Assembly (NCBI RefSeq): GCF_029851875.1
Contig: NZ_JARKVC010000032.1
Location: 18,709 to 82,708, forward strand
Direction: 5' to 3'
DNA length: 64,000 nucleotides
Source of the DNA: Actinomyces sp.
Lineage (GTDB): Bacteria; Actinomycetota; Actinomycetes; Actinomycetales; Actinomycetaceae
In this document: positions 11,506 to 33,126 of the stretch, in pieces
Layout: each line of letters begins with the position of its first letter
Numbering within the stretch: the stretch's first letter is position 1
The notes under the pieces: model-generated
What the model was told of the DNA's origin: nothing
What the model saw: the letters and a program-made list of their open reading frames with translations, nothing else
Databases searched by the model: none
Translations under genes and position numbers: made by a program

Positions 11506-11638
11506 ACCGGTTGGCTTCGCGAGACAGCGAGGCTGTCGTTCACGCCCAAGCAAGCCAACCTGAGGCATCCTCAGTACCGGCGAACCAAGATAGTGTGCCA
11601 TCTGGACAGACCCGTTTCTTTGAAAAGAGAGCCACAGC

Positions 11639-12977: not shown

Positions 12978-14162
12978 TCAGCTGGCCACCTGGAGCACAC
13001 CCCGTGCCACAAGCTCCTGAGCCGCGCGGGCAACCATCGATCGAGACTCCGGGTGCTCCCCCATCATCGCGACGACCTGGTCATGAAGCTGGGCGAGCGT
13101 GGCGGGCTCGTCAAGCGCGGTCCAGAGCGCCGCGCCCGCTCCTCCCAGTGTCACTGGTGTACGCCCAAAGAGCAGGACAACTCTGCCCTCAGACTCCACC
13201 CCATCGTCCCAGGGCGTCCTGACCAGTGCCTCCTCTGGTTGCAGGGGAGGGCGCTCGCACACATGGAGCTCACTCGCTCCGGTCGCGTCGCCCTTCAACG
13301 CCCGTCCGGGCCTGTGTGTCCACTGCGGCCCCGGCGCGTTGCTCGGCTGCACCAGGGCACGTAGGAGCTCCGCGCACTCCAGCTGGTCGCTGAAGCGCAG
13401 CAGCCAGGGCCCACCAGCCAGGGTCAGCACCTGACTCAGGACACGTAGTGGGTCCTTGAGTGCGTAGAGCGAGGAACTCTGCGCGATCGCCGTCTCCAAG
13501 GCCTCAGCCAGGCTGATCGGGACGAGCTCGTTGCCTTCGGTCACACGCTCGGCCAGCACGAGTGCCGCGAGAGCAGCCTCCGTGTCGGGACGGATCGAGG
13601 TGAGCCCGAGGTCCGCTGGAGCGTGGTCCCTTTTTCTCCGCGCCAGGCCCGTTACCGCAGGATCGTCCTCAATGAGTGACAGGGGCTTGGGATAGGCGAT
13701 GACGCCCATGTCCCGGGGACGGACCGCCAGGGTCTCATCCGTGACGTATCCGAAGCCGTCCGTCAGTCGCTGGCAGAAAGTGGTCTTTCCTGTTCCTGAG
13801 GCCGCGATGATGCCCACGACCGGTGAGGGGAGGCCATCAGGTTGTGCAGCTCCTGGCGCAGGGAAGGGGACCAGACCTGCAGCGTGGAACATCAGCAGCT
13901 CACCCGCTGCCCGACGGATGGCGAACCAGGTCAGGTGCTGGGAGACAGAATAGGTGTGGTCCAGGCGCTGGTCCCCTAGCACGAGATCCTCCGGCCCGCA
14001 CTCGTGCCCAGCCTCTGGTGGAAGAAGGCGGATGACATCATCCTGCGGGCTATCGGCCGCTACGGCACAGTCCTGCCACAGCCACTCAATCTGGCGGGAG
14101 ACGGCTGGAAGAAGCCGGCTGGCATCGACGTCAATACGCCGACCTAGCAGAAGAAGCTGCAC
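12978..14162 (-). CDS. HprK-related kinase fused to a C-terminal PqqD-like (RRE) domain
   Basis: 394 aa; Walker A GIIAASGTGKTTFCQRL, FGYVTDETLAVRP; C-terminal GRVVLLFGRTPVTLGGAGAALWTALDEPATLAQLHDQV...ELVARGVLQ resembles PqqD. Confidence 0.75.
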   Translation of the reverse strand: MQLLLLGRRIDVDASRLLPAVSRQIEWLWQDCAVAADSPQDDVIRLLPPEAGHECGPEDLVLGDQRLDHTYSVSQHLTWFAIRRAAGELLMFHAAGLVPFPAPGAAQPDGLPSPVVGIIAASGTGKTTFCQRLTDGFGYVTDETLAVRPRDMGVIAYPKPLSLIEDDPAVTGLARRKRDHAPADLGLTSIRPDTEAALAALVLAERVTEGNELVPISLAEALETAIAQSSSLYALKDPLRVLSQVLTLAGGPWLLRFSDQLECAELLRALVQPSNAPGPQWTHRPGRALKGDATGASELHVCERPPLQPEEALVRTPWDDGVESEGRVVLLFGRTPVTLGGAGAALWTALDEPATLAQLHDQVVAMMGEHPESRSMVARAAQELVARGVLQVAS

Positions 14163-14327
14163 AACGAGGACCTGTCGGAGGGAGTGGTATCAGGAGCGAT
14201 GGTAGCGTGGCGACAGCTGACGGGGCCATCACACGCTTGTCCGGATGTCCTTGGCCGGTGCGCCCAGTCAGGAATCGATCCACATGATGGCGGATGTCAC
14301 CGCCCTGACAACGCGGAAGGTGATCGA

Positions 14328-15596
14328 ATGGCGAGTCATCATTCGGCGGACCAAGAACGTTCCCGCTCAGGGACTCATAGACATCGATCCCGCCGCCACG
14401 GTGCTACCAGGCCCGCTGTTCCTGTCACGACGACTGAGGAGTACCTCGAGGGTCTCGGCTCTGTGTCAGACCTCTTCGGTGACGAGGCTCCGCAGGCACC
14501 TCACGACGAGCCCCCACGACGACGTCGGCGACGCAAGAAGGGGGCCTGGTACTCCCGCCACAAGGCCCTGACAGTCGTGCTCGTCCTCTTCCTCGTCATG
14601 GCACTGGGCGTGGGCGCAGGGGCGCTCTGGCTCCGTCAGGCCCTGAGCTCGATGAGCTCCTTGGGTGATCCGTTCGCCGCCCTGCCCTCCCGCGCCCCCT
14701 ACGCCACTACCGCTGCGGCGGAAGATCCGGTGACCTTCCTTGTGCTCGGCTCCGACTCACGAATCAACACCTCGGACCCCTCTCAGTGGGAGGTGGGCGC
14801 CCAGCGCACCGACACGATCATGCTCGTCCAGGTCGCCGGGGACCGTCGCAGCGTCAACGTCATGTCGATCCCACGTGACTCGTGGGTGACAATTCCTGCC
14901 AATGACGTGGTTGACCACGACTCCCAGGCGAAGATCAACGCCGCCTACTCCTGGGGAGGCCCGACGCTTCTGATCCAGACGGTGGAGAACGTCACGGGCA
15001 TCCACATCGACCATTTCGCGGTCGCTAACTTTGAGTCCTTCAAGAAGCTGACTGATGACCTCGGAGGTGTCGAGATCACCTTGACCCAGCCGCTGGACCT
15101 GCGCGGCACCCAGGACGCCGCGACGTCAGACACGGTGCTTGAGCCCGGCACACACACCCTGACCGGCGAGCAGGCGCTCATCTATGCTCGTGAGCGCTAC
15201 ACGCTGCCCAACGGCGACTTCGACCGGATCAAGCGTCAGCAGAACTGGATGCGTGCCATCCTCAAGGCGATGATCAGCAAGGACACGCTGACCAGTCCGA
15301 GCAAGCTGGCCAGCCTCATCACGACAATCAAGGACACCGTCGCGACCGACCAGGCCTTCACCGCCTCGGAGATGACGGCCTTGGCGACCTCGCTCCAAGG
15401 CCTGCGGTCTGACGACGTGCAGTTCTTCCAGGCCCCGGTCACCGGGACGAGCATGTCCGAGGACGGACAGTCCATCGTGCTGCTTGATATCCCTACGCTG
15501 TCAGCCGTCTCAGCGGCATTCCAGAACGACACCCTGACGGACTACGTCTCGAAGAACTCAGACAAGCTCAACATGCTTGGCGGCCAGGTGAACTGA
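14328..15596 (+). CDS. LytR-CpsA-Psr (LCP) family glycopolymer transferase
   Basis: VTFLVLGSDSR, RTDTIMLVQV, NVMSIPRDSWVTIP, INAAYSWGGP, GEQALIYARERYTLPNGDFDRIKRQQ; start ATG at 14328. Confidence 0.93.
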   Translation: MASHHSADQERSRSGTHRHRSRRHGATRPAVPVTTTEEYLEGLGSVSDLFGDEAPQAPHDEPPRRRRRRKKGAWYSRHKALTVVLVLFLVMALGVGAGALWLRQALSSMSSLGDPFAALPSRAPYATTAAAEDPVTFLVLGSDSRINTSDPSQWEVGAQRTDTIMLVQVAGDRRSVNVMSIPRDSWVTIPANDVVDHDSQAKINAAYSWGGPTLLIQTVENVTGIHIDHFAVANFESFKKLTDDLGGVEITLTQPLDLRGTQDAATSDTVLEPGTHTLTGEQALIYARERYTLPNGDFDRIKRQQNWMRAILKAMISKDTLTSPSKLASLITTIKDTVATDQAFTASEMTALATSLQGLRSDDVQFFQAPVTGTSMSEDGQSIVLLDIPTLSAVSAAFQNDTLTDYVSKNSDKLNMLGGQVN

Positions 15597-15629
15597 TCCT
15601 TCGAGCGAAGACAGATCCAGGCTGAATCC

Positions 15630-15672
15630 GCGGGCGGCTCCACCCATATCGGGGATGGAGCCGCCCGCTTTT
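15630..15672 (+). terminator. Rho-independent terminator of LCP gene
   Basis: GCGGGCGGCTCCA / TGGAGCCGCCCGC stem followed by TTTTCT. Confidence 0.8.
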
Positions 15673-15702
15673 CTACGAGTGCTTCCGTCAGCCGCAGCCC
15701 GA

Positions 15703-17430
15703 CTAGCCGTTCCTCAGGCTACGACGTGTAGGACGGTCGGGATCCGCAGCTGTTGCCCTGCGGGTGACGGGAATCTGTGGCGGCAGCGCTGCGGCCTCCG
15801 GCTCCTGAGAGGACGGAGCGGCATGACGACGCGAGGCGCGCCTGGCGGACGAGTCGGGCTCTGCCGCACGTTCGGGGACTGACAGCGGCGCGTTAGGCAG
15901 ATCAGGCTGCTCCTCCACCACCATCTCACCGAAGCCAGCGCTGCGCCGCTTACGACGCCTTGGGAAGATCCCCAGGAACTTGCCGCGCTCATTGCCGTAC
16001 TCATAGTAGTTGTGCCCGTAGCTGCCGTAGCCGTAGCCGTAGTAGACGCTGCCAAGCTGACGACGTGAGGCACGGTTGAGAACGACACCGAGCAGGCGGG
16101 CGTCAACCTGCTTGAGGACCTTCGCGCACAGGCGAGCCTGCTCCTTGAAGGTCCCACCCACCTCCATGACCACGATCGCACCGTCAGCCAGTCCGGCAAG
16201 AAGGCCGGCATCGGTGACCGGCAACAGCGGCGGCGCGTCAAGGATCACGATCGCTTCCTCCGTCAGGCGGTCAAGGAGCGCCTTCATGCGCTGGGACCCC
16301 AGCAGCTCGGAGGGGTTCGGAGGGATACGACCAGCAGTGATGACGCGTAGGTGCGGCTGGTCCTTGACCGGCTGAGCCACCTGAGCCACCTGCATGTCCC
16401 CAGCAAGCACCTGGGTCAGGCCGACTGCCCCGTCTAGCTCAAAGATCTTGTGCTCCACAGGCTTGCGCAGGTCGCAGTCCACGAGGATCGTCCGTTGCCC
16501 GGAGGCCGCCAGCATCTGAGCGAGCACGGCAGAGACGGTGGACTTGCCTTCTCCTGGATTGGCCGAAGTCATCACGATAGCCCGAGGAGGATTGTCCACG
16601 TCCAGGAAACGGAGGTTCGTACGCAGGTGGCGCAACGCCTCAGCGGCCTCCCCGAGGCCGTCTACATGACGCCGCCCGTCCTTGTTGAGCTCGTTCGAGC
16701 GGGGGACGACGGCGAGCACCGAGGCCCCGGTCAGTTCCTCCACGTCAGAGTTGTGCCGGACGCGGTTGTCCAGGGCACGCTTGAGGAAGGCGATCAGGTA
16801 GCCGAATACCAGGCCGCCGAGCGCACCTGCCAGGGAGATCTTTGGGATGTTCGGGTAGACCGGGGTCGTCGGCACAGTCGCCTGCGCCAAGGCCACGATC
16901 TGGGTCTGAGTCGTACGGTCAGGAACGTCCACCGAAGTGGATGGTTCATTCTCCACACCGTCTGCGGCATCAGTCTGCTCTGAGGCCTGAGGCGTCGGCA
17001 CAGACAGGGACTCCAACCGGGTGACTTCAGTCCCCAAGGCCTCAACGGCAGCGTTCGCGATGTCGCGGGCTCTGGTGGCATCGTTTGAGGAGGCCGTAAT
17101 CATGATGATCGGGGAGGAGGACTGGACAGAGCCGCTTAGGGATCCGCCCAGGCTCTCCAGCCCGAGGTTCTTCGCTGTCGTCTCGGCCACTGACTGGGAG
17201 GCCACCAGTGAGGAGAAGGCCTCAGCCTTCTGCTGTGCCAACGAGTTGGCGGTGAAGGCGTCTGTACCTGCCACCACGACGAGCGCGCTCGTCGTTGCCT
17301 GATACATCCGCAGCTGCAGCTGAGCGTATCCAAAGCCAAGAGCACCACCGAGCACCGTGCAGACGATGATGAGGAGCGCATTGACCCGGGTCAGGCGCAC
17401 AAAATCCTGAATTGTCACGGCAGTGTCCAT
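15703..17430 (-). CDS. Wzz-type chain-length regulator fused to BY-kinase (polysaccharide tyrosine autokinase) with disordered C-terminal tail
   Basis: 575 aa; N-terminal Wzz TM region, MTSANPGEGKSTVSAVLAQMLA Walker A, ILVDCDLRKP, VILDAPPLLPVTDA, Tyr cluster YYGYGYGSYGHNYYEYG. Confidence 0.92.
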   Translation of the reverse strand: MDTAVTIQDFVRLTRVNALLIIVCTVLGGALGFGYAQLQLRMYQATTSALVVVAGTDAFTANSLAQQKAEAFSSLVASQSVAETTAKNLGLESLGGSLSGSVQSSSPIIMITASSNDATRARDIANAAVEALGTEVTRLESLSVPTPQASEQTDAADGVENEPSTSVDVPDRTTQTQIVALAQATVPTTPVYPNIPKISLAGALGGLVFGYLIAFLKRALDNRVRHNSDVEELTGASVLAVVPRSNELNKDGRRHVDGLGEAAEALRHLRTNLRFLDVDNPPRAIVMTSANPGEGKSTVSAVLAQMLAASGQRTILVDCDLRKPVEHKIFELDGAVGLTQVLAGDMQVAQVAQPVKDQPHLRVITAGRIPPNPSELLGSQRMKALLDRLTEEAIVILDAPPLLPVTDAGLLAGLADGAIVVMEVGGTFKEQARLCAKVLKQVDARLLGVVLNRASRRQLGSVYYGYGYGSYGHNYYEYGNERGKFLGIFPRRRKRRSAGFGEMVVEEQPDLPNAPLSVPERAAEPDSSARRASRRHAAPSSQEPEAAALPPQIPVTRRATAADPDRPTRRSLRNG

Positions 17431-17493
17431 CCTTTATGTCCCGTATGAGGACGCTTGGCGTCGTACCACTGGTCCTACACGCTAACAAGGAAC

Positions 17494-18120
17494 CTAGACC
17501 GTACGCTCCATCAAGCGGGCAAGCGTGACCAAAGGCTCGTCCAGCACTGCAGCCACACGCTCCGCCTCATCACGTGGCCGCCGGTACGGGTCGGGGACAT
17601 CCTCGCCGCTCCTTGCTACCACGCCCGTCTCATGCAGTCTCATGACGAGCTCGCGAATCTCCCAGGACTGGTCGGGGTCAGCGCCAACCAGCAGGGACCG
17701 ACCAGCCCTTCCCGCCTGGGCGAGCGTGAACACGCGAGCGTGGACCCGTGGCTCGAGGTCGAGAACGGCGTCACGGTGCCGTTTCTCCATGGTGATGATG
17801 AGGTCGGGCTCCAGCAGCATCTGAGGGTCGACGCTGCGGGACCGGTGAGCCTCGCACCAGGAACGCGGAACCCCGCGCTCCTGGGCCATCTCACTCATCT
17901 GGGGATCCATCACCCAGCGGTCAGCACCTGGGACACCAGCGCTACTGATGATCCAGGACGTCGGCGCCCCCAGATGCCTCCGCAGAACCAGCTCAGCAAA
18001 GGGGCTGCGTGAGACGTTGGCTGTACAGACGAAGAGAAGAGCATTGGCCCTGTGCCGGGGGCGACGAAAAGGTGCCACCTCGCTGTCCGAGGCATGCGGG
18101 GAGAAGATGCTGCTCATCAT
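17494..18120 (-). CDS. Low-molecular-weight protein tyrosine phosphatase
   Basis: LFVCTANVSRSPFAE (CX5R), DVPDPYRRP general-acid motif. Confidence 0.88.
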   Translation of the reverse strand: MMSSIFSPHASDSEVAPFRRPRHRANALLFVCTANVSRSPFAELVLRRHLGAPTSWIISSAGVPGADRWVMDPQMSEMAQERGVPRSWCEAHRSRSVDPQMLLEPDLIITMEKRHRDAVLDLEPRVHARVFTLAQAGRAGRSLLVGADPDQSWEIRELVMRLHETGVVARSGEDVPDPYRRPRDEAERVAAVLDEPLVTLARLMERTV

Positions 18121-18470
18121 CCCCCGTCCCGCCTCTCGCTCATCGGATGCTCCTCCGCCAGAAGCCCGCGACGCACCATCTCCCCCAGGAATGTCGCCAC
18201 ATCCGCACGTATCTCATCCGCTGTGGCGCCCACGCACTCGGCCACCCGCCTGGTGACAGCGTCGTTGTCACCAGGCGGCTCCTCCTGGTCGGCAGCCGAG
18301 GCATCCACCTGCCCATGACCAGATGCGAGTCGACCAACCGCTGCCCGCCAGATGAGAGCGGCAGAGTCAGACAGGACGAGGAGAGGACCATCCGGAAGAG
18401 GGGCGACGTAGACAGCGGCAGCCTCATCGTCATACACGTATCCGGTGCGGGGAGCGACAACATACGTCAT
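18117..18470 (-). CDS. PqqD family (RRE-like) protein
   Basis: 117 aa; DGPLLVLSDSAALIWRAAV...FLGEMVRRGLLAEE; overlaps flanking genes by 4 bp each side. Confidence 0.7.
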   Translation of the reverse strand: MTYVVAPRTGYVYDDEAAAVYVAPLPDGPLLVLSDSAALIWRAAVGRLASGHGQVDASAADQEEPPGDNDAVTRRVAECVGATADEIRADVATFLGEMVRRGLLAEEHPMSERRDGG

Positions 18471-19336
18471 TTCCTCAGCGCCCTCCTGATCTCACTGACA
18501 CCAGCACCGAGTCGGTGAAAGAACTCTTGAGCTATCTCACTACGAGTCGGCTGGCGGTGCAGCCGCATGGCCAGGTGGTCCCGATTGACCAGAAGGGCTC
18601 GCAACGCCAGACGAGTCTTTGCCTTGGCCCCGGGCGCCGCCTTCACACGCGCTGACCACTCGGACAGCCTGGAATGCGAGCTTCCGGAGAACACCTGCCA
18701 CAGGTCGTGAGCGGGGTCATCTGCGTAGAGGTCAAGCTGTCCTAGTGCTGCCGCCAGAGCAACTTCGGCATCAAGCGATACTGCAAGTCGTCGGATCGCG
18801 TCACGCGCGTCCCGTTCCAGTCCCGACCAAGCACGCGCATAGTCAGGGTCAGCCTCGCCGGCGCCATTGCGGGCCAGGTGCAGCAGGAGCAGCAGCCGTT
18901 GGGCTGACAGACCTGGGACAGCGCATACGATCCCTGCCAGCTTCGCCGCCTGTCGCCCCTGCCAGAGCTGCTCAAACGCGTCGTGCGCCCGCATCCCAGG
19001 GAATACTTTATGAACATCCGCGTACCCCCAGGAGTCATGAAAGTACGTCGCTGCGTGCTCGAAGGCGGAGCCGGTCTCAAAGGAAGTCACCGGCGTCCAA
19101 CCGTGAGCGGCAAGCAGATCGAGAAACGAGCCCACATGCTCTGGACGCACCAAGACGTCAGCGTCTGTCGAGCCCGTCCGTGGCCGCCCGATCTCCGGCG
19201 AGACTGCAGGACCTTTGATGTGCAACAGGTCTAGCCCGTCTTCAGAAGCAATCACCTGGAGCGCCGCGTGCGCGAGATAAGCACGTAGCCCAACAGGAAC
19301 CGCAGGCTCTCGACTCTCTGACGCGGAAGAAGTCAT
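18467..19336 (-). CDS. Nucleotidyltransferase family protein (NTP_transf_5-like)
   Basis: 289 aa; LLHIKGPAVSPEIGRPRTGSTDADVLVRPEHVGSFLDLLAAHGW, DVHKVFPG. Confidence 0.75.
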   Translation of the reverse strand: MTSSASESREPAVPVGLRAYLAHAALQVIASEDGLDLLHIKGPAVSPEIGRPRTGSTDADVLVRPEHVGSFLDLLAAHGWTPVTSFETGSAFEHAATYFHDSWGYADVHKVFPGMRAHDAFEQLWQGRQAAKLAGIVCAVPGLSAQRLLLLLHLARNGAGEADPDYARAWSGLERDARDAIRRLAVSLDAEVALAAALGQLDLYADDPAHDLWQVFSGSSHSRLSEWSARVKAAPGAKAKTRLALRALLVNRDHLAMRLHRQPTRSEIAQEFFHRLGAGVSEIRRALRK

Positions 19337-19501: not shown

Positions 19502-21316
19502 ATGAACACGCTACGCACATACCGCCACTATCTTGGCGTGCTTCTCAACCGACGTCAGCGGTGGCAGCTGGCGATCGCTGCGGTCGGCAGCATCGTCCTC
19601 GCCCTCATGGACACTGCGTCGGTACTTCTGACCGCCCCTCTTCTCGTTGCACTGAGCGGGCAGTGGGATTCGGGAGTCGCCGGAAGCATTGCACGCATGC
19701 TCGACGTCACCTCTCAAGGCGATCTCATCACGATCTTGCTTCTATTGACGGTTGGCGGATTTATCCTCAAGGACCTGCTCACCATCGGCTACAGCTGGTG
19801 GTCCGCGTCCTTCACCAACAAGATGCGGGCCCACGCCCAGGTCGAGGCAACTGACTACTACATGCGTCTGCCCTACCACGAGCACTCCCACCTCAGCCTC
19901 GCCCTCATCATCAGAAAGACGTCAACGTCAGTCATTCAGACATACCAGACATTCATTGGCGGAATTCTTGGACTTACCAGCCAGGTATTCCTTGTCGCCT
20001 GCATCTCGGTCGCACTGGTTGTAGCGACACCGATTATGTCCATCACGTTGATACTCGTTGCCACTCTCACCTCCTGGGTATTCATCCGTGTCATCAAACC
20101 CGTTAACGAACGCATCGGACAAGAGGGGCTCTCGACAGCGGAAGAGTCTTACTCGGCAACGATCGACGCCTTCGGCGCCATCCGGGAGACACAGCTGCGC
20201 CATTCATACCGTTTTTTTCTTGACGCGATCGCAACGCCAACCTATCGTAGCGCTCAACTTCAGCGAAATTCAACATTTCTTAACGGTCTCCCGAAACAAC
20301 TGATCGAGATCCTCTTTATGGTGAGCCTGGCAGTCGGCTTCCTCGTAGCCACCCTCACTGGCCAGGCGACAAATGTCCTGGCATCACTCGCGCTTCTCAT
20401 GGCGGGCGCTTTTCGACTCCTACCAACTTTCTCCGCCATGATCGGTTCCCTGAACAGCATCCGGCAGGGAGAAGCCGCTGCCCGGGAATACGTTGCGGAT
20501 CGTCTCGCTGCGAAGAGCAGGAACGACCTCATCCCAGTGACAGACAAGGGGAACGGAGCACCCACTCCTCTGACTGAGTCGTTGTCCTTGAGAGATGTTC
20601 ATTTCCGCTACTCGCCACGGTCACCCGAGGTACTGCACGGTGTCACCATGGAGATCGCGGCAGGTTCGACGGTCGCTTTTGTCGGTTCCTCAGGTGCCGG
20701 TAAGTCCACCTTGCTCGATCTCCTCATGGGGCTCCAGGAGCCGACATCCGGCACGATCATGGTCGATGGCGTGGACATCTCCTCCGCCATGTACGGCTGG
20801 CAGCGCAACATTGGGGTGGTCCCCCAAGAGGTCTTCATCACCGATCGCACGATCGCCGAGAACGTTGCCTTCGACCAGGCCAAGGAGGATATCGACGAGG
20901 ACCTGGTCCGGCAGGCTCTCAGGCAGGCAGACATCCTCAACTTTGTCGACAGCCACCCCGAGGGGATCTGGTCCTCCTTCGGGGAGCGCGGACGGCGCCT
21001 GTCCGGCGGACAGCGTCAACGGATCGGCATCGCGCGGGCGCTGTACCGCCAGCCCTCCGTGCTCATCCTGGATGAGGCCACATCCGCCCTGGACAATGAG
21101 ACCGAGGCGCGTATCGCGGCCACCGTGGCTGTCCTAGGCAGTGAGATCACTGTCATCATCGTCGCCCACCGCTTGTCCACCGTACGTGACGCCGACATGA
21201 TCGCCTATCTCGAGCACGGTCGCGTGGAGGCTACCGGTACTTTCAGCGAGCTCCAGGAACGCAGTGAGGGATTCCGGCACCTGGTGGAGCTGGCCTCTCT
21301 GGAGGAGCGACCATGA
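19502..21316 (+). CDS. ABC transporter, fused TM and ATPase, PglK/lipid-linked oligosaccharide flippase-like
   Basis: MNTLRTYRHYLGVLLNRRQRWQLAIAAVGSIVLALMDTASVLL; AGAFRLLPTFSAMIGSLNSIRQGEAA; FVGSSGAGKSTLLDLLMGL; LSGGQRQRIGIARALY. Confidence 0.85.
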   Translation: MNTLRTYRHYLGVLLNRRQRWQLAIAAVGSIVLALMDTASVLLTAPLLVALSGQWDSGVAGSIARMLDVTSQGDLITILLLLTVGGFILKDLLTIGYSWWSASFTNKMRAHAQVEATDYYMRLPYHEHSHLSLALIIRKTSTSVIQTYQTFIGGILGLTSQVFLVACISVALVVATPIMSITLILVATLTSWVFIRVIKPVNERIGQEGLSTAEESYSATIDAFGAIRETQLRHSYRFFLDAIATPTYRSAQLQRNSTFLNGLPKQLIEILFMVSLAVGFLVATLTGQATNVLASLALLMAGAFRLLPTFSAMIGSLNSIRQGEAAAREYVADRLAAKSRNDLIPVTDKGNGAPTPLTESLSLRDVHFRYSPRSPEVLHGVTMEIAAGSTVAFVGSSGAGKSTLLDLLMGLQEPTSGTIMVDGVDISSAMYGWQRNIGVVPQEVFITDRTIAENVAFDQAKEDIDEDLVRQALRQADILNFVDSHPEGIWSSFGERGRRLSGGQRQRIGIARALYRQPSVLILDEATSALDNETEARIAATVAVLGSEITVIIVAHRLSTVRDADMIAYLEHGRVEATGTFSELQERSEGFRHLVELASLEERP

Positions 21317-22314
21317 ACCACCGCGTGAGTATTGTCATTCCGTTCTACGGAGATCCTGCTCCTGCTCAAGAGCTGATCTCCCGGCTGCAGCAGGATCACT
21401 CGCCCCTCCTGCACGAGATCATCGTCTCCGACGACGCCTCACCGACCGCGTTCCCGCACATGGACGGCGTCATCGTGACCCGCCGCGATCACAACGGCGG
21501 TTTCGCCCAGGCGGTGAATTCCGGTGCTTCCCTGGCCACAGGAGACCTCCTTCTCATCCTCAACTCCGACCTCCACCTGTGCCGTGGCTTCCTTGATGAC
21601 CTCATCACACAGGCACAGCCATGGATGCCTGCCATGGTGTCGGTCAACACGGCAGGCACATCCACCAGCGCCTCCTGGCCAGGACGGCACTTTCCGAACA
21701 CGTGCCACGCCGTCGCCGAGTGGCTCCTGCCCCTGGTGCGTCTACGGCATCTCCCCGCCCTCCATGAGGCCGTGGGGCACGACACTCGTGCGGACGGCTC
21801 ACGCGACATGTGCGTCGACTGGGTCGTGGGTGCTCTCATGCTCCTTCCCACCCAGGCGTTCAGAGCCGTTGGAGGGCTGGATGAGTCCTTCTACATGAAC
21901 AGCGAGGAGGTTGACCTGCAGCGTCGCTTACGTGTCCTGGGACTGCCTTCGGTCATCCTCAGCGGCCTGCACGCCGTCCATGACGGCGGAGGCTCCTCCG
22001 CTGCCGACAAGCGTGTGGCCTGGATGATGGACGGACGCCGCCGCTACCTCACCAAGTGGCGAGGGAGAACGGGACTGGCTCAGTTTGAGGCAGCCATGCT
22101 GGCTGCCACCGGAGTCAACCTCGTGTGGAACACCATCCGTCGCGCTGCCGGAACGCGCATCAGCCCATGGGGCGTGGCTCAGGAGCAGTGCCAGGTGATT
22201 CGCCACCCCGAGCAGTGGGTCCCGCTAGAGCACCGTGCGCCACGCTCGCAGCGCGGGCCGTCTTCTTCGCCTTCTTCTCACGGGGACACCCCAACGGCAC
22301 GTCAGCAAGGATGA
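21313..22314 (+). CDS. Glycosyltransferase family 2
   Basis: RVSIVIPFYGD...LLHEIIVSDDAS, NGGFAQAVNSGASLATGDLLLILNSDL. Confidence 0.88.
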   Translation: MNHRVSIVIPFYGDPAPAQELISRLQQDHSPLLHEIIVSDDASPTAFPHMDGVIVTRRDHNGGFAQAVNSGASLATGDLLLILNSDLHLCRGFLDDLITQAQPWMPAMVSVNTAGTSTSASWPGRHFPNTCHAVAEWLLPLVRLRHLPALHEAVGHDTRADGSRDMCVDWVVGALMLLPTQAFRAVGGLDESFYMNSEEVDLQRRLRVLGLPSVILSGLHAVHDGGGSSAADKRVAWMMDGRRRYLTKWRGRTGLAQFEAAMLAATGVNLVWNTIRRAAGTRISPWGVAQEQCQVIRHPEQWVPLEHRAPRSQRGPSSSPSSHGDTPTARQQG

Positions 22315-22317
22315 AGC

Positions 22318-23325
22318 ATGCCCCAGCTCCGGCTCCTCATCATCTCCCCCGCTTTCCACGGCTACTGGCGGGCCTACGAGGACGCTTTCACACGTCTTGG
22401 CTACCGCGTACGCACCCTGCGCTACGACGAGCTTCCGAGCCGCTCAGCGAAGGTCAGGCACAAGCTCGGTGTCGAGCTGATGGACCGCCTTGGCGCTGAC
22501 GGCTCCTCCCGCTGGGCCCGCAGGACGTCAGCCCTGTGCGCCAAGGAGGTTCTCTCATCACGGCCTGATCGTGTCCTCGTGATCCGGGGGGACATCCTCG
22601 GCGAGGACTTCTGGGAGGCAGTCACCCAGGTCGGTGCCCGCCCGCTCACCCTCATCTATGACGAGGTCGCTCGTATGGGCACCTCTTACGAGCAGCTCAT
22701 GAGGCATGGTCCCGTCGCCTCGTACTCGGCTCACGACACCGCCCAGCTGGCTGCACGTGGAGCACGTACCGCGCATGTTCGCGACGCCTACGACTCTCAC
22801 CTCCCCTTCCACCCGGTGGCGAGCGATGAGGTGGTCTTTATCGGCGCTCTCTACGGGTTGCGCGGCACCTACATGGAGAGTCTGCACCGCGCGCAGATCC
22901 CGGTACGCGCCTACGGCCGCTCATGGTCCCACCACATCTGGGACCGGATCCGTACCTGGGACGCTCCACGCCCGGACCTGCCAGCGCACCGTGACGTCCC
23001 CCGCGACCTGGCTTACGGCATTCAGGCCGGAGCCCTCGCCTCGCTCAACGTCCATGACCAGCAGGACGGCTTCACGATGCGGACCTATGAGATCCCCGGA
23101 GTCGGCGGGCTCCAGCTCATCGACCGGGACGATGTCGAGGACCTGTATGAACCAGGTACCGAGGTTCTTGTCTTCCACTCATCCGAGGAACTGGTCGATC
23201 TCGTCCGACGCGCCGCGACTGATACCGCCTGGGCCCGCTCGATCCGGCGAGCCGGGCGACGCCGCACTCTGGCGGAACACACTTTCGATCATCGCGTCCT
23301 TGAGCTCGCGGCACTGTGGGACTAG
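22318..23325 (+). CDS. CgeB-like glycosyltransferase
   Basis: HGYWRAYEDAFTRLGYRVRTLRYDEL; RTYEIPGVGGLQLIDR...LYEPGTEVLVFHSSEELVDLVRR. Confidence 0.75.
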   Translation: MPQLRLLIISPAFHGYWRAYEDAFTRLGYRVRTLRYDELPSRSAKVRHKLGVELMDRLGADGSSRWARRTSALCAKEVLSSRPDRVLVIRGDILGEDFWEAVTQVGARPLTLIYDEVARMGTSYEQLMRHGPVASYSAHDTAQLAARGARTAHVRDAYDSHLPFHPVASDEVVFIGALYGLRGTYMESLHRAQIPVRAYGRSWSHHIWDRIRTWDAPRPDLPAHRDVPRDLAYGIQAGALASLNVHDQQDGFTMRTYEIPGVGGLQLIDRDDVEDLYEPGTEVLVFHSSEELVDLVRRAATDTAWARSIRRAGRRRTLAEHTFDHRVLELAALWD

Positions 23326-23334
23326 GAGAACACC

Positions 23335-24453
23335 ATGCTGACACCCTCACCGTCCCAGGCACCCGCTGACCGGCTCCTCCACCCACGCGACCTCACCGCC
23401 TGGCAGTCCTGGGCAGCCTCCCACCACCGTCTTCGTCGCCTCAAGGCGGGCCTCACCTCGTCGGCGCGGGCTATCGCCCGCCGACAGCCGCGCCAGCCCG
23501 ACGACGTCCTGGCAACGACCGGCCCTGACCCGCACGTCCTGATCGTCATCGACGCGCCGACCTCCTCACAACAGGCAGCACTTCTCCAGCCCTTGGCCCA
23601 CCTGGTCTCCACGGGCCAGGACGTCGCTGTGCTGTGTCCTCGTGAGGTACTGCCACTCCTGCAGATGACCATCGCGCCCAGGAGGACAGTGACCAGATCA
23701 GCCGCCGGCAGCCTCCCGGACTCTGACCTCACGAGCGTCTCCACGGTCCTCGCCGTCGGTCACTACCTCTCCCTGGGCTCGCAGGCTTATCGCTGGGCCA
23801 AGGAGAGGAGCGTGCGCTTCTGCGTCATCCAGCACGGGCTTCTCACTCCTTTCATGGCCCCCTTGCCCGATGACGCTCACCTCCTCGCCTGGTCCCAGGA
23901 GGACGCCGACTTCTGGATCTCCGGGCGACACGACGTGACCTACGAGGTCGTCGGCAGCCAGCTGCTGTGGCAGGCCGCCAAGGAGCCAGCCGCTCAGGTG
24001 GACCCCGACGCCCGTCCCGTCTTCTTGGGCCAGCTCCACGGCATCGAGCTCAGTCGTTCCTACATGACAAGAGTCAGCTACGACTTCTGCCGAGGCACCG
24101 GGGCCACCTATCGGCCTCATCCCTCAGAGAAGGACAAGCTCTCTCGCCTGACCCACGCCCTGTGGGAGCGTCGCGGTATCGAGATCGACCGCACCAAGGT
24201 CCCCCTGCCTCAGATCGGTCGCCCTGTTGTCGGTGTCTTCTCCACCGGGATCCTAGAGGCTGCCGCGAGAGGAGTACCCGCGTGGCAGGTCTCTACGGCT
24301 GGGTCAGGTCTAGGCACAAAGGCCCCATCATGGCTTCAGGCTTTCCACAGCCGATATAACATGTCCTCATGGGGCAGCGCGCCGACCCCACGTCCTGATG
24401 TACCCAGGGCCGAGCCGGCGCGGGCCGTCATATACGCCCTGACCACGACATAA
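23335..24453 (+). CDS. GT-B-like glycan transferase of unassigned family; candidate nonulosonate transferase from context
   Basis: 372 aa; FCVIQHGLLTPF, YRPHPSEKDK (HP motif), GVFSTGILEAAARGVPAWQV; immediately upstream of neuA. Confidence 0.5.
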   Translation: MLTPSPSQAPADRLLHPRDLTAWQSWAASHHRLRRLKAGLTSSARAIARRQPRQPDDVLATTGPDPHVLIVIDAPTSSQQAALLQPLAHLVSTGQDVAVLCPREVLPLLQMTIAPRRTVTRSAAGSLPDSDLTSVSTVLAVGHYLSLGSQAYRWAKERSVRFCVIQHGLLTPFMAPLPDDAHLLAWSQEDADFWISGRHDVTYEVVGSQLLWQAAKEPAAQVDPDARPVFLGQLHGIELSRSYMTRVSYDFCRGTGATYRPHPSEKDKLSRLTHALWERRGIEIDRTKVPLPQIGRPVVGVFSTGILEAAARGVPAWQVSTAGSGLGTKAPSWLQAFHSRYNMSSWGSAPTPRPDVPRAEPARAVIYALTTT

Positions 24454-24468
24454 AGGACCTACCCGCTC

Positions 24469-25173
24469 ATGAGCGCGCTCGCCGTCATCCCTGTTCGCGG
24501 GGGCTCCAAAGGTATCCCACGCAAGAACCTGCGAGATGTCGGCGGCAAGCCGCTGGTCGCATGGACCATCGAGCAGACCCTGGCGGCATCCTCCGAGCTG
24601 CGTGTGGTCGTCTCCACCGAGGACGCCGAGATCGCGCAGGTCGCCCGGGAGGTCGGAGCCGAGGTCATCGACCGCCCAGCAGACCTGGCGCAGGACACCA
24701 CGGCCACCGAGCCCGTCGTCGTCCACGCCATGAACCTCCTGTCAACCCAGGGCTACGAGCCGGACTACGTCATGCTGCTCCAGGCCACCTCACCGGTGCG
24801 TCGTCCCGGCACCATTGACCGGGCACTGACCCAGGCTCGTGACACCGCGGTGGACTCGTTGGTCGGCGTCGTGCCCCAGACTCCTTTCCTGTGGTGGACC
24901 GCCCGCGACGGACACGGCCCGACGGCCGACTTCGACGTCGATCATCGCCCCCGCAGGCAGGAGCTGACAGCGGACCAGATGCGCTACCGGGAGACCGGGT
25001 CCCTGTACGTCACCCGCCCCTGGCTCTACCGCGAGCGTATGAACCGTATCGGCGGGAAGATCGGGCTGTTCGTCATGGACGAGGTCGAAGGCGTCGACAT
25101 TGACAGCCCTCTCGACCTCGAGCTCGCAGGAAAGACCTTGACACAGATGCAGCAAGAGGAAGGCATCGCATGA
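24469..25173 (+). CDS. neuA: CMP-N-acetylneuraminate cytidylyltransferase (acylneuraminate cytidylyltransferase)
   Basis: ALAVIPVRGGSKGIPRKNLRDVGGKPLVAWTIEQ, VVVSTEDAEIA, MLLQATSPVRRP. Confidence 0.9.
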   Translation: MSALAVIPVRGGSKGIPRKNLRDVGGKPLVAWTIEQTLAASSELRVVVSTEDAEIAQVAREVGAEVIDRPADLAQDTTATEPVVVHAMNLLSTQGYEPDYVMLLQATSPVRRPGTIDRALTQARDTAVDSLVGVVPQTPFLWWTARDGHGPTADFDVDHRPRRQELTADQMRYRETGSLYVTRPWLYRERMNRIGGKIGLFVMDEVEGVDIDSPLDLELAGKTLTQMQQEEGIA

Positions 25174-27428
25174 GCATCGAACGCTCCATCACGCCCTACA
25201 TCATGTTCGGCGAGGAGCCCGTCCTCAGCGCGCTGACGAAGATCAACGCCAACCGCGCCCGGACAGTCTTCCTCGTCGACGAGCACGGCACCCTCGTCGG
25301 CTCCCTGACGGACGGGGACGTGCGGCGGTGGCTGACCTCCGGTCACAACGACCTCCAGGTCCCCGCCTCGGCGGTAGCCAACCTCTCCCCACGCTTCGTC
25401 ACCGAGGGCACGATCCTGGACGAGCTCGACTGGGCGTTTCGGGACGGCGTCACCCTCATCCCGGTCCTGGACGACCGCCACCGCGTCGTCGCCATCGCCT
25501 CTCCAGGAAACGACATCTTTACCATCGGCACCCACAAGGTCGGCAAGGACCAGCCAGTCTTCATCATCGCCGAGATCGGCAACAACCACCAGGGCGAGTA
25601 CACACGTGCGATCGAGCTCGTGGACCTGGCCGTGGATGCAGGCGCGGACTGCGTCAAGTTCCAGCTGCGTGACATGGACGCGCTCTACCGTGGAGCCTCC
25701 GGGCAGATCACGGCCGGCGAGGACCTGGGAGCGCAGTACACCCTGGACCTGCTCACCCGTTTCTCCCTGCCGGCAGAGGCGATGCTCAAGGTCTTCGACC
25801 ACTGCCGCGAGCGCGGTATCGACATCATGTGCACCCCCTGGGACCTTCCCAGTCTCGACGTGCTGTGCCAGTACGGCGTCGACGGGCTCAAGATCGCCTC
25901 CGCGGACCTGACGAACCACACCCTGCTGCGTGCAGCGGCACGCGAGTCCCTGCCGATGATCGTGTCCACCGGTATGAGCACCGAGGCCGAGATCAAGGAG
26001 TCGGTGTCTCTCCTGCGACGCTACTCCGCTCCGTACGCGCTGCTGCAGTGCCAGTCCTCCTACCCCGCTCCTTTCAAGGACCTCAACCTGCGTTACATGC
26101 AGCGCCTCGCAGAGATCGGTGACTGCCCGGTCGGCTACTCCGGGCACGAGCGTGGCTTCCACGTCCCGATGGCGGCCGTGGCCATGGGAGCTGCCATCAT
26201 CGAGAAGCACTTCACCACCGACCGAGGGCTTGAGGGCAATGACCACAAGGTCTCCTTGCTCCCAGACGAATTCGCCTCCATGGTCCAGCAGATTCGTGAG
26301 GTGGAGGCCTCGCTCGGTAGTGCTGAGCCGCGCACGGTGCAGCCGGGTGAGTTCATGAACCGTGCCAATCTGGCCAAGTCCCTGGTGGCTGCCCGTGACC
26401 TGTCCGCAGGACAGAAGATCACCGGAGACGACGTCGAGGTGAAGAGCCCCGGACGGGGCCTTCAGCCCAACCGTATGACGGATCTCGTCGGACGAGTCCT
26501 GACCCGTGATATCGCTGCCGGTGACTTTTTCTACGACGGCGACGTGAACGACGACGCCCCTCGGCCCCGCGCCTACAGCTTCCGCCGTCCCTGGGGCGTG
26601 CCCGTGCGCTACCACGACTTCCGCCGCATCCTTGCCGCCGGCGCCCAGCCCGACTTCCTGGAGTTCCACTACTCCTACAAGGACCTGGACATGGATGTGG
26701 ACGAGGTCTTCGCGGACTTCACGGACAAGCCGCTGCCTATGGGCTACACCTGCCACCTGCCAGACCTGTTCAGCGGTGACTTCATCCTGGATCTTGCCTC
26801 GAAGGACGACGAGGTGTGGGAGCGCTCCATCCGAGAGCTCCAGCGCACCATCGACATCACCACCTCGCTGCGTCCTTACTTCCAGCAGGAGGAGGCTCCG
26901 GTCTTCATCGCGACCCTCGGCGGTTTCACCGAGTCGGGCTTTGTCTCTCCCGATGAGGTCCCAGCCATGTACGACCGCATCATCGAGGGCCTCAAGCAGG
27001 TGGACCACTCTGGTGTACGGCTTGCGCCCCAGACCCTCCCGCCCTACCCGTGGCTTCTGGGCGGTCAGAAGTACCACAACCTCTTTATGAGCCCTGAGGC
27101 CCTGGCTGACTTCGCTGAGCGTTCCGGCCTGCAGATCACCTACGACATCTCGCACTCGATGCTCTCAGCCAACCACGAGCACCGACCGCTACGCGAGTAC
27201 ACCGAGATCCTGGCCCCGCTCGCGGCCCACCTGCACATCGTCGACGGCAAGGGCGTTGACGGAGAGGGCACCCAGATTGAGGAGGGCGACGTCGACTGGC
27301 CAGAGCTCGCCGAGCAGCTGGACCGTCTGGCGCCTGGTGTCTCCTTCATTCCGGAGATCTGGATGGGGCACGTCAACGACGGTGAAGGCTTCTGGAGGGC
27401 CCTGGACCGCCTGGAGAAGTACCTGTGA
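25170..27428 (+). CDS. neuB: Multidomain N-acetylneuraminate synthase: N-terminal CBS pair, NeuB, SAF, C-terminal xylose-isomerase-like TIM barrel
   Basis: 752 aa; TVFLVDEHGTLVGSLTDGDVRRWL (CBS), FIIAEIGNNHQGEYTRAIELVDLAVDAGADCVKFQ and GYSGHERG..IIEKHFTTDR (NeuB), AARDLSAGQKITGDDVEVKSPG (SAF), LQITYDISHSMLSANHEHRPLREY (TIM-like). Confidence 0.88.
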   Translation: MSIERSITPYIMFGEEPVLSALTKINANRARTVFLVDEHGTLVGSLTDGDVRRWLTSGHNDLQVPASAVANLSPRFVTEGTILDELDWAFRDGVTLIPVLDDRHRVVAIASPGNDIFTIGTHKVGKDQPVFIIAEIGNNHQGEYTRAIELVDLAVDAGADCVKFQLRDMDALYRGASGQITAGEDLGAQYTLDLLTRFSLPAEAMLKVFDHCRERGIDIMCTPWDLPSLDVLCQYGVDGLKIASADLTNHTLLRAAARESLPMIVSTGMSTEAEIKESVSLLRRYSAPYALLQCQSSYPAPFKDLNLRYMQRLAEIGDCPVGYSGHERGFHVPMAAVAMGAAIIEKHFTTDRGLEGNDHKVSLLPDEFASMVQQIREVEASLGSAEPRTVQPGEFMNRANLAKSLVAARDLSAGQKITGDDVEVKSPGRGLQPNRMTDLVGRVLTRDIAAGDFFYDGDVNDDAPRPRAYSFRRPWGVPVRYHDFRRILAAGAQPDFLEFHYSYKDLDMDVDEVFADFTDKPLPMGYTCHLPDLFSGDFILDLASKDDEVWERSIRELQRTIDITTSLRPYFQQEEAPVFIATLGGFTESGFVSPDEVPAMYDRIIEGLKQVDHSGVRLAPQTLPPYPWLLGGQKYHNLFMSPEALADFAERSGLQITYDISHSMLSANHEHRPLREYTEILAPLAAHLHIVDGKGVDGEGTQIEEGDVDWPELAEQLDRLAPGVSFIPEIWMGHVNDGEGFWRALDRLEKYL

Positions 27429-28540
27429 CCCGTCCTCAGTTCTTTTCCGATAGCGCGCGACGCACCTATAGAGGCATTCTAGGTAACGCGCCGATCGCCC
27501 TGTGGGCGGTACCGGTCGCTGATCTGGGTGGTGTAGCCCGGCACGTGCTTGACGTCGCACGCACCGGTATCCCGGATACGCGACTGGTGGTGCTGTGCCC
27601 ACCGGGGCCGCTCGCAACCGCTTTACGGGATATCGGTATTCCTGTCCTGGTCGAAGGCTTTGGTCCCGAGGCCGGCCTGCGTTCCTCAGTGCGTAGCCTG
27701 CGCCATGCAGTGGCCAAGCTGCGTCCCGCTGTCTTGCACACACATCTTGCTTACGCCGATCTCGTCGCCGCACTCGCTGTCCCGATCAGCTGGCCGGTAC
27801 GGCTGATCTCGACGGAACACGGAATCGCCGCGCCAGGAACGGATGTCGTGTACCACGGTTCAGGGGCCAAGTCGGCTTTCATGCATGCCGTTCACGCAGC
27901 CCGCTGCGAGCGTTTTGATGCGCTCATTGCTGTCTCCGAGGCGACAGCTGCTGCTATGCGCGCCACCTGGCACCCACGCCGTGAGATTCGCGTCGTCTAC
28001 AACGGCGTCAATCCGCTTGCGCATCTTGCACCGACGACAGGGCTTCGAATTCTCTCACTGGCTCGTCTTGCGCCAGAAAAGCGCATTACTGAGCTGCTCA
28101 AGGCCTTCTCTGTCCTCCACCGAGATCACCCAGAGGCATGCCTCACCATTGCGGGCACCGGTCCCCTTGAGGAGGAGTTGCGCGCGACGGTGGCCGTGCT
28201 TGGTCTTGAGGAAGCCGTTGACATGCCGGGTTTCGTAGATGCTGAGCAGGCCTTGGCTGAGCATGATGTCCTTGCCCAGCTGTCTGTGTGGGAAAACTGC
28301 TCCTACTCGCTTCTCGACGCTGTTGCCCACGGGAAGGGCGTGGTGGCCACACCCGTGGGTGGCAACCCCGAGCTCTTGCCTCCGCAGTCGCTGGTAGGAG
28401 CAGAAGACCTCCAGGGGCTTGCCTCTGTGCTCTACACCCAGGGGATGGATCTTCAGGCGCGCCCCCAGCTGGGTCACTGGCTTTCTCTGCCGGAGATGAC
28501 CGTAGAGATCCAGGATGTCTACCGAGGCTGCTTCGCATGA
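27425..28540 (+). CDS. Glycosyltransferase family 4
   Basis: VPVADLGGVARHVLDVARTG, SLARLAPEKRITELLKAFSVL, WENCSYSLLDAVAHGKGVVATPVGGNPELL. Confidence 0.88.
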   Translation: MTRPQFFSDSARRTYRGILGNAPIALWAVPVADLGGVARHVLDVARTGIPDTRLVVLCPPGPLATALRDIGIPVLVEGFGPEAGLRSSVRSLRHAVAKLRPAVLHTHLAYADLVAALAVPISWPVRLISTEHGIAAPGTDVVYHGSGAKSAFMHAVHAARCERFDALIAVSEATAAAMRATWHPRREIRVVYNGVNPLAHLAPTTGLRILSLARLAPEKRITELLKAFSVLHRDHPEACLTIAGTGPLEEELRATVAVLGLEEAVDMPGFVDAEQALAEHDVLAQLSVWENCSYSLLDAVAHGKGVVATPVGGNPELLPPQSLVGAEDLQGLASVLYTQGMDLQARPQLGHWLSLPEMTVEIQDVYRGCFA

Positions 28541-29577
28541 CCCTTATTCATCTTGCGAGCAATAACGGGGAGATCGGCGGCGGGGAGGTCATGCTTCTTC
28601 ACCTCGCCGAGGGCCTGCGCGACCTCGGTCACGAGGTGCATGTCCTCGGGCCCGCTGCGCCGTGCGGTGTGCTTGAGGCGGCTGCCGAGCGCGGCTTTGA
28701 CACGACTGAGATGCCGGCGGGCCGCCGAGACTATATGCGTGCGCTGGCGTCCTGGGACCGCAGACGGCATGGGATCTTGTGGTGCAACGGCCTGGTCCCG
28801 GCACTGGCAACAGCTGGGCGCCGGCGCCGTATTGTCCATCTGCACCAGGCGCCTACCTGGAAGCATGTGCTGGCAGGGCGCACGGCAGGCATGGGCGCTC
28901 TGGCACTTCTCGTGCCGTCAGCCTGGATGGCTGCGCGGTTCCCGGGTGCACAGATCCTTCCGAACTGGGTGGAGGCCGTAGACGTCCTCCCTCACCAGCG
29001 CAGCGAGAAGGAGCCCGTCATCCTGGGTTTCCTTGGCCGGTTGAGCCTTGATAAAGGCGTGGGGACCCTTGCACGTGCGCTGCAGCAACTGGATGTCGGG
29101 AACCCTGGCCGTTATCGTCTTCTCCTTGCAGGCGAGTCGCGTTTTGTTGATGAGGCTGATCAACAGCAGCTGCGGAAGGCCCTTGCTCCCATTGCTCATC
29201 TCACCCGCCAACCGGGCTGGATGGAGCGGGCAGACTTCTTTTCGGCCGTTGACCTTGCGGTCTTCCCCTCTACCGCGCCAGAGTCCTTTGGGCTCATCGT
29301 CGCCGAGGCGCAAAACGCACGCTGTCCTTATGTCGTGTCTGACTCGGGAGCCCTGCCGGAGGTTGCTGGCCAGGCATATCCGTGGGTCTTCCACGCAGGA
29401 GACCACGTGAGCCTGTCTCGCCGTATCGAGCAGGCCCTGGCTGTCTCAGATTCGGAGCAGGAGCAGCTTCTTCAGACTCAGCATGAGCGGTGGGAGTCCC
29501 GTTTCTCTCCCACCGCTGGTGCTGCTCGCCTTCGCCACCTGCTCACCGATGTCCTCCCGCAGGAAGAGAACGCATGA
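28537..29577 (+). CDS. Glycosyltransferase family 4 (start at ATG 28537)
   Basis: MTLIHLASNNGEIGGGEVMLLHLAEGLRDLGHEVHVLGP; FLGRLSLDKGVGTLARAL; FPSTAPESFGLIVAEAQNARCPYVVSD. Confidence 0.88.
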   Translation: MTLIHLASNNGEIGGGEVMLLHLAEGLRDLGHEVHVLGPAAPCGVLEAAAERGFDTTEMPAGRRDYMRALASWDRRRHGILWCNGLVPALATAGRRRRIVHLHQAPTWKHVLAGRTAGMGALALLVPSAWMAARFPGAQILPNWVEAVDVLPHQRSEKEPVILGFLGRLSLDKGVGTLARALQQLDVGNPGRYRLLLAGESRFVDEADQQQLRKALAPIAHLTRQPGWMERADFFSAVDLAVFPSTAPESFGLIVAEAQNARCPYVVSDSGALPEVAGQAYPWVFHAGDHVSLSRRIEQALAVSDSEQEQLLQTQHERWESRFSPTAGAARLRHLLTDVLPQEENA

Positions 29578-30569
29578 ATACCTCTCCTCTGCACGGTCGC
29601 GACGGCGACGCTGCCCGAGCAACGCACCCGCTCACAGCCTCTCTCGTGATCCCTAGCTACAAGGGTGAGACCAAGCTCCCCACGCTCTTGGCCGCGCTCG
29701 AAAAGCAAGACGCTCCGCATGGCAGCTGGGAGGCGCTTGTCGTGATCGACGGCCTCTTTGATGACTCACCGGCTCTCATCGAGGCAGCGCGCGAACAGGG
29801 CGTACCCGTGCGCGCCGTCGTCCTGGAAGAGAACCAGGGGCGTGTCGCGGCACTCAACGCCGGATTCGCCGCAGCCACGGGCGATGTCCTCATCCGTTGT
29901 GATGATGATCTGGAGCCTGCCGCGAGCTACGTGTCCTCCCACCTCGCTCGCCACGCCCACGCCGCGCAGCCAATCGGCGTCGTCGGAATCTATCGCGATA
30001 TCCTCCCGCATTCGCGATACTCCTCAGTATATGGTCACCCACGCGAGCAAAAGGTTCGTCAGGGGGCATACGCCGCAAATCACCCCAGCTGGAAATACTG
30101 GGCAGGCAACTGCTCGGTCACTCGAGAGACCTATGACCGCCTCGGTGGATACTCAACAGCCTATGTCCACTACGGCTGGGAAGATGTGGACTTCGGTTAC
30201 CGCCTTCATGAGATCGGGGTCCCTGTCATCCTTGCTCCGGAGCTGGAGACCATCCACCACGGAGCTGCGATCTCGACCGTGACACGCACCTTGCGCGCCT
30301 ACCACTCTGGTGCAGCACGCCGCACCTTCGATGCCCAGCACCCCGGCGTCGTGCCCGCGCCCAGTGCCGGAAGCGGCTGGTGGGGACGTCTTGTCTCCGC
30401 TGTGGCAGCCGCTGGAGCAGAAGAGCAGGTAGAGACTCGTGCCCGCCTGACCGACCACTTCCTTCCCTTCCTTCCCAGTGCTCTCGGCGAGAAGCTGGTG
30501 GCTCTCAACGTGGAGTCCGCCTCTCTCGCTGGCTACGAGCACGCTCACACTGTCACGAACCGATTCTGA
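29574..30569 (+). CDS. Glycosyltransferase family 2 (start at ATG 29574)
   Basis: ASLVIPSYKGETKLPTLLAALEKQ; ENQGRVAALNAGFAAATGDVLIRCDDDLEP; YGWEDVDFGYRLHE. Confidence 0.9.
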   Translation: MNTSPLHGRDGDAARATHPLTASLVIPSYKGETKLPTLLAALEKQDAPHGSWEALVVIDGLFDDSPALIEAAREQGVPVRAVVLEENQGRVAALNAGFAAATGDVLIRCDDDLEPAASYVSSHLARHAHAAQPIGVVGIYRDILPHSRYSSVYGHPREQKVRQGAYAANHPSWKYWAGNCSVTRETYDRLGGYSTAYVHYGWEDVDFGYRLHEIGVPVILAPELETIHHGAAISTVTRTLRAYHSGAARRTFDAQHPGVVPAPSAGSGWWGRLVSAVAAAGAEEQVETRARLTDHFLPFLPSALGEKLVALNVESASLAGYEHAHTVTNRF

Positions 30570-30578
30570 GCAGCTGCC

Positions 30579-33124: not shown

Positions 33125-33126
33125 CG

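Follow-up and report, generated by a model that had tools for sequence, protein, structure and literature searches.

Known systems and the present locus

LPP clusters of Bacillota, which lie within capsule loci, combine a recognition element (RRE) for ribosomally synthesized and post-translationally modified peptides (RiPPs) with an HprK-like kinase, an NTP transferase, a SipW-like peptidase and an exporter (Popov et al. 2026, PMC13381572). The LPP RRE binds the leader residues Y-16, P-13 and V-11, and the kinase phosphorylates Ser+3, where S3A or S3T substitution abolishes phosphorylation (PMC13381572). Among lasso peptides, a His-Lys-Asp-Asp set has been reported as the catalytic residues of the kinases, and in pseudomycoidin PsmK makes a phosphoserine to which the nucleotidyltransferase PsmN attaches hexose (PMC9266682). 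In Actinomyces oris, the LCP enzyme LcpA glycosylates the surface protein GspA (PMC6381275). The locus described here lies in 64,000 nucleotides of an Actinomyces sp. (RefSeq assembly GCF_029851875.1, contig NZ_JARKVC010000032.1, positions 18,709 to 82,708; this whole stretch is called the window) and carries genes for an HprK-like kinase, a stand-alone PqqD protein, which is an RRE, and a nucleotidyltransferase (NTase), together with an LCP protein, a bacterial tyrosine kinase (BY-kinase) and a protein-tyrosine phosphatase (PTP). The PqqD, HprK and NTase proteins probably constitute a leader-guided system that tags proteins exported by twin-arginine translocation (Tat), as argued by domain identities and folds, gene association, a signal motif with a conserved Ser, co-occurrence across genomes and substrates encoded in trans.

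The locus resembles the LPP clusters in its discrete RRE, HprK-like kinase, NTP transferase and capsule-locus location, and also in an aromatic-xxP-x-aliphatic motif at -16/-13/-11 with a Ser just past the cleavage site (Ser+2 here, Ser+3 in LPP). However, LPP precursors have 35-200 aa and are encoded in the cluster, whereas the motif sits here in the Tat signals of numerous exported proteins that are unrelated to one another and encoded in trans; LPP clusters include a SipW-like peptidase and an MsbA-like exporter, while here there is no dedicated peptidase; and the present system shows W instead of Y, a kinase-RRE fusion, and BY-kinase, PTP and LCP partners. With the paeninodin and pseudomycoidin lasso systems (PadeK/ThcoK, PsmK, PsmN) it shares an HprK-type Ser kinase, an NTase predicted to extend phosphoserine and a WxxP leader of the kind read by B1 (an RRE), but it has no B2 peptidase or macrolactam cyclase and its Ser is placed at the signal cleavage site, not at the peptide C-terminus. 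The LcpA-GspA pair, an actinobacterial LCP putting a glycopolymer on a surface protein, gives a precedent for the LCP gene of the module, although GspA is a Sec/sortase protein and no RRE, HprK or NTase has been described for this pair. The HPr-rel-A system (TIGR04352 kinase plus a PqqD relative), named in an earlier sequence-only reading of the window, also pairs an HprK-related ATPase with PqqD-like proteins, but the kinase scored 14.9 bits against a TIGR04352 cut-off of 200, and this identity was rejected.

No lasso B2 protease or asparagine-synthetase-like cyclase family was detected among the scanned window genes, no SpI (SipW-like) leader peptidase among these genes or in the modules of sister species, and no open reading frame with the precursor pattern YxxPxVLxHQxIxFETxxS in the scanned intergenic regions. 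Having no SpI, B2, cyclase or in-cluster precursor, the system is neither an LPP nor a lasso cluster, and it is not HPr-rel-A. The proposal of the sequence-only reading, a lasso- or LPP-like modification system that does without B2, cyclase and radical SAM genes, is supported. In the open-access literature, to which the search was confined, no description was found of Tat with an RRE, or of HprK with PqqD in Actinobacteria.

A twin-arginine signal with a conserved serine

In other genera the surroundings of HprK repeatedly contain genes for small exported proteins whose twin-arginine signal is unusual, as in the loci of Agromyces luteolus, two Demequina, Pseudoclavibacter terrae, Microbacterium oxydans and Arthrobacter. 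The consensus of this Tat-WxxP signal is RR-x7-W-xx-P-x-[IV]...P-A-x-A-x-S, or more fully S-R-R-x-V-x-x-G-A-A-W-[AST]-x-P-[AV]-[IV]...P-A-x-A-x-S, with a fixed spacing between RR and W. The signals are predicted to direct Tat export, since they have a twin arginine, an uncharged hydrophobic (h-) region and an AxA site, and TatC is present in the host. A set of 94 unique signals was selected by two features, RR-x7-W-xx-P and a hydrophobic stretch free of charges, and not by Ser; within it, Ser occupied W+17 in 85 signals and Thr in none, against a Ser background of 9% at the eight positions following W+17. By locus, Ser was found at W+17 in 42 of 47, and in the three sister species in all signals (13/13), even where the pre-cleavage proline was lost. 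WxxP was absent from all 30 generic Tat signals examined in the genus. With cleavage after AxA, the conserved residues fall at W-16, P-13, [IV]-11 and Ser+2, and by sequence comparison WxxPx[IV] fits the published motif bound by PqqD-type RREs in lasso and LPP leaders. Signals with Y or F replacing W gave 11 looser matches, none with Ser at +17, and were discarded. Variant signals with longer RR-to-W spacing were also observed beside HprK and PqqD genes in two loci (L028:10485-10847 and L112); in the former the W-to-Ser spacing is unchanged (17) and an asparagine-synthetase-like gene is close by.

Co-occurrence of the signal with the enzymes

The occurrence of the signal was surveyed with a profile built from 20 signals of genes beside HprK. 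The genome of the window gave 14 matches, 13 of them convincing, distributed over several contigs and none within the window; the corresponding proteins are diverse, ranging from ~50 to >500 aa, and no Pfam family was found in the ten that were scanned. Among 49 genomes of the genus, Tat-WxxP signals were present only in the four with HprK (14, 6, 7, and 3 signals, respectively), the others having none save one 19-residue match at 7e-4 in G038 (Fisher 5e-6 for the association). The presence of Tat itself was rejected as a trivial cause of this pattern, since TatC is universal in the genus (49/49 genomes); generic Tat signals were found in 40/41. In the order (297 genomes), the signals occurred in 62 genomes, HprK (counted at >60 bits) in 61 and the NTase in 53; all 53 NTase genomes had Tat-WxxP signals and 52 had all three components, while 227 genomes had neither Tat-WxxP nor HprK. 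Co-occurrence of the HprK, PqqD and NTase genes, on which the sequence-only reading depended, was found far beyond this genome. In 397 genomes sampled from the phylum, matches were confined to this order.

Substrate genes adjoin those of the enzymes in many genera. An exported HExxH protein of the window's genome (contig C12, L151) bears a Tat-WxxP-Ser signal, and its homologues in three HprK-negative sisters (L152, L153 and L154; 38-40% identity) bear ordinary signals without WxxP; because a single protein family is concerned, this signal swap is only suggestive.

Structure predictions and conserved residues

The AlphaFold model of the kinase, obtained with an input alignment of 38 homologues, was confident throughout (pLDDT 94.0, pTM 0.91), and Foldseek placed it in the PEPCK/HPr-kinase fold, with HprK/P (1knx, 2qmh) among the matches; by Pfam the kinase was recognised only faintly from its sequence. 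The last ~80 residues matched TbiB1 with bound lasso leader peptide (5v1v, TM 0.73 on target); the PqqD-like C-terminus seen in the sequence-only reading is therefore borne out as an RRE winged helix by the predicted structure (residues 312-392 of the model), with a weak Pfam PqqD score under the cut-off (16.5 bits). Residues H93, K126 (Walker A), D142, and E143 are invariant in the 38 homologues, in line with the catalytic set of the lasso kinases.

In the kinase-fused RRE, Ala mostly takes the place of the pocket Phe that leader-binding RREs conserve, the window's kinase lacking it too, and this domain was rejected as leader binder. The family profile of the stand-alone PqqD matched most closely leader-bound RREs, namely TbiB1 (1e-12), the WxxP-preferring PbaB1 (9e-10; 9x90) and LppB (2.5e-8; 9x8z). 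The pocket-dividing Phe is kept in 26 of 31 stand-alone members, including that of the window, which retains both the pocket Phe and the acidic residue. Since the fused RRE mostly lacks this Phe, the stand-alone PqqD is the likelier reader.

The NTase model (AlphaFold 91.8) resembles LnuA, ANT(2'')-Ia and MenT1 and, more weakly, the ribitol-phosphate transferase FKRP. Invariant positions in 33 homologues are K41-G42, D58-x-D60 and the third Asp in D107-x-H109. Judged from these alignments, kinase and NTase both retain their catalytic residues.

Genomic context of the module

The three genes named by the sequence-only reading (HprK-like kinase, stand-alone PqqD and NTase) were confirmed in place (Table 1), as were their LCP, BY-kinase and PTP neighbours, while the gene it called a flippase encodes an MsbA/PglK-like ABC exporter. 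The NTase, PqqD and PTP genes overlap by 4 bp at each junction and are followed by the BY-kinase gene. Because the opposite-strand LCP gene stands between, the kinase gene does not belong to this operon, and the operonic coupling to BY-kinase and PTP that had been proposed for the whole trio holds for the NTase and PqqD genes and not for the HprK gene. The PDB homologues of the LCP product are TagT/TagU/BrpA, and the position of its gene is kept in the three sister species. According to assignments from sequence, purine genes flank the module and the capsule cluster on both sides.

Table 1. Coordinates of the module and of adjoining genes in the window
Feature	Coordinates	Strand	Evidence
HprK-like kinase, PEPCK/HprK fold with C-terminal RRE	12978..14162	-	AlphaFold, Foldseek, invariant residues
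RRE/PqqD-like winged-helix domain of the kinase, residues 312-394	12978..13229	-	AlphaFold, Foldseek, pocket comparison
LCP-family glycopolymer transferase, divergent from kinase	~14463..15596	+	PF03816 160 bits; start codon uncertain
BY-kinase, Wzz-type N-terminus and Tyr cluster	15703..17430	-	TIGR01007 146.7 bits, over cut-off
Low-molecular-weight protein-tyrosine phosphatase (LMW-PTP)	17494..18120	-	PF01451 68.8 bits
Stand-alone RRE/PqqD, predicted Tat-signal reader	18117..18470	-	PF05402 28 bits, cut-off 23.4
NTP_transf_5 nucleotidyltransferase, predicted phosphoserine extender	18467..19336	-	PF14907 34.7 bits, cut-off 31.2
MsbA/PglK-like ABC exporter, first gene of divergent capsule cluster	19502..21316	+	
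Capsule/exopolysaccharide genes (context only): glycosyltransferases, CMP-sugar synthetase, NeuB-like fusion, WcaJ-like sugar transferase, PAP2, putative polymerase	21313..35009	+	

The same six genes (HprK, LCP, BY-kinase, PTP, PqqD and NTase), identically ordered, were found in three further species of the genus, and because of this recurrence the set is not a chance grouping. In two of these species (G002 and G017) the module lies near eno, ppx, rplY and pth-like genes, and no capsule genes were found in the 20-kb stretch read; therefore the six-gene set is a separate unit, with the ABC exporter outside it. The MsbA-like exporter is adjacent but divergent in the window, and none was seen beside the G002 and G017 modules. 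Among 43 HprK loci with an NTase or a Tat substrate, a BY-kinase gene was found within ~10 kb in 31, a PTP gene in 18 and WcaJ in 15, and the tie of BY-kinase, PTP and LCP to the HprK system is real as a gene association. The minimal order, NTase-PqqD-HprK-substrate, was observed in Agromyces luteolus (L042).

Several variants of this arrangement were recorded. In Pseudoclavibacter terrae (L033:8672-10702), an HprK-like part and an NTase are fused in a protein of 676 aa, and in the vicinity are genes for a stand-alone PqqD, a signal peptidase I and Tat-WxxP proteins. MauE/DoxX-like redox membrane proteins recur by the HprK/PqqD/NTase loci L022, L024, L025 and L043 (PF07291 was tested in L043 alone). 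The flanks of the G017 module (L018:7447-8253 and 10844-11656) contain, between genes, many copies of a short repeat whose translation in several frames gives NKYRSHGQQVPFSR-like strings. The pattern scan for HprK used a subset of a 14-member alignment, the full set being too diverse. Homologues of HprK also stand among unrelated genes, with no NTase, Tat-WxxP protein or BY-kinase nearby, in L030, L031, L038, L039 and L040, and those of the first four may have another role; no HprK relatives were found in viral contigs.

Two further features of the window concern glycan genes. One protein of 752 aa (25170-27428) is a NeuB-type synthase that carries a CBS-like region at its N-terminus, a SAF domain and, at its C-terminus, a TIM barrel resembling xylose isomerase, and a full-length homologue adjoins the HprK locus L021. 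Beyond purM, positions 1-3834 form a low-GC patch (53%, against 64-71% in the adjoining regions) with three glycosyltransferase-like genes, which is probably a second, recently acquired glycan locus.

Proposed mechanism and alternative explanations

In the mechanism we propose, the system acts in the manner of LPP phosphorylation, but its targets are exported proteins, recognised by way of the Tat signal. The stand-alone PqqD would bind WxxPx[IV] in the hydrophobic part of the twin-arginine signal peptide and deliver the preprotein to the HprK-like kinase, where the RRE fused to that enzyme probably assists in docking. Next, the near-invariant Ser at W+17, about two residues past the predicted signal-peptidase site, would be phosphorylated by the kinase, and the NTase would attach to the Ser phosphate a further group, most probably a sugar or a sugar-phosphate. 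Once folded, the protein would leave via Tat, and signal peptidase would expose the modified N-terminus, whose tag may meet surface polysaccharide, possibly as its attachment point, as suggested by the BY-kinase, PTP and LCP genes. Homology, register, co-occurrence and the lasso and LPP biochemistry point to signal reading by PqqD and to Ser phosphorylation; the identity of the NTase-added group is suggested less strongly; and polysaccharide attachment is speculative, drawing on the BY-kinase association and the A. oris LCP precedent.

Some observations weigh against this tagging system. The cleavage site, and with it the register, is predicted from AxA; deletion of the LPP NTase gene caused no change in a heterologous host (PMC13381572). 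As the profile was built from HprK-adjacent genes, the neighbourhood counts are not independent of it; the genus survey, with its unlinked substrates, is independent. Five genomes with good Tat-WxxP signals have no detected NTase (G100, G161, G187, G299 and G361), and it was still absent from such genomes after rescoring of all candidates; eight genomes have HprK without Tat-WxxP. Phylogenetic relatedness inflates the order-level p-values, and for this reason, and because the substrate genes are unlinked, the genus result is the cleaner test.

A role in capsule regulation, in which HprK, PqqD and NTase would modify a carrier or the BY-kinase/PTP switch to steer polysaccharide assembly while the Tat signals are incidental, agrees with the capsule locus inside the window and with the counts of BY-kinase, PTP and WcaJ at the HprK loci; we nevertheless consider it unlikely, since the modules of G002 and G017 lie away from capsule genes, by eno/ppx and rplY/pth, and it leaves unexplained both the conserved Ser and the tracking of the enzymes by Tat-WxxP signals in unlinked genes. 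The sequence-only reading had likewise proposed that the target is a carrier, peptide or glycan, through which polysaccharide assembly is controlled; this is not supported, the results indicating as targets many Tat-exported proteins whose genes lie elsewhere in the genome and which are read through their signal peptide. Slightly less likely still is that Tat-WxxP is a sorting or cleavage signal for a dedicated signal peptidase or anchoring enzyme, with HprK, PqqD and NTase acting elsewhere in the same cell-surface programme: the conserved P-A-x-A-x-S does look like a processing site and signal peptidase I-like genes occur in two loci (L033 and L043), but the modules of the window and the sister species have no peptidase, WxxPx[IV] agrees with the motif reported to bind RREs, which lies equally far from the cleavage site, and the closest known HprK/RRE system phosphorylates Ser at that very place.

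That the locus is a small-peptide RiPP cluster (lasso or LPP), with a precursor, protease or cyclase that has been lost or is encoded elsewhere, seems very improbable. The enzymes are of the same kinds as in paeninodin and LPP clusters and an MsbA-like exporter is adjacent, but scanning of the window genes around the module turned up no B2, cyclase or SpI family, and the motif-bearing proteins are exported proteins of ~50 to >500 aa. Short conserved precursor open reading frames by the module, which the sequence-only reading had suggested looking for, yielded no convincing [YW]xxP candidate in the scanned intergenic regions of four species.

Implications

RREs are known as adaptors of peptide natural products, and the tagging system, if true, would be a case of an RRE marking ordinary exported proteins via their export signal. 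A more far-reaching version, in which the Tat signal doubles as a RiPP-style leader, RRE, HprK and NTase equip a whole class of exported proteins with a phospho-linked anchor at their N-terminal Ser, and LCP joins to this anchor a surface polysaccharide whose polymer is controlled by the BY-kinase, is a tentative idea of which we are more doubtful than confident; if true, it would yield N-terminally polysaccharide-linked exported proteins. For a gene group with families described as of unknown function, the analysis proposes a target, a residue and an enzyme set, and defines a large set of candidate substrates by motif. The four-gene cassette of Agromyces luteolus makes the system testable in a strain that is not pathogenic, and the system offers a direct test of why enzymes of the lasso and LPP type recur in capsule loci.

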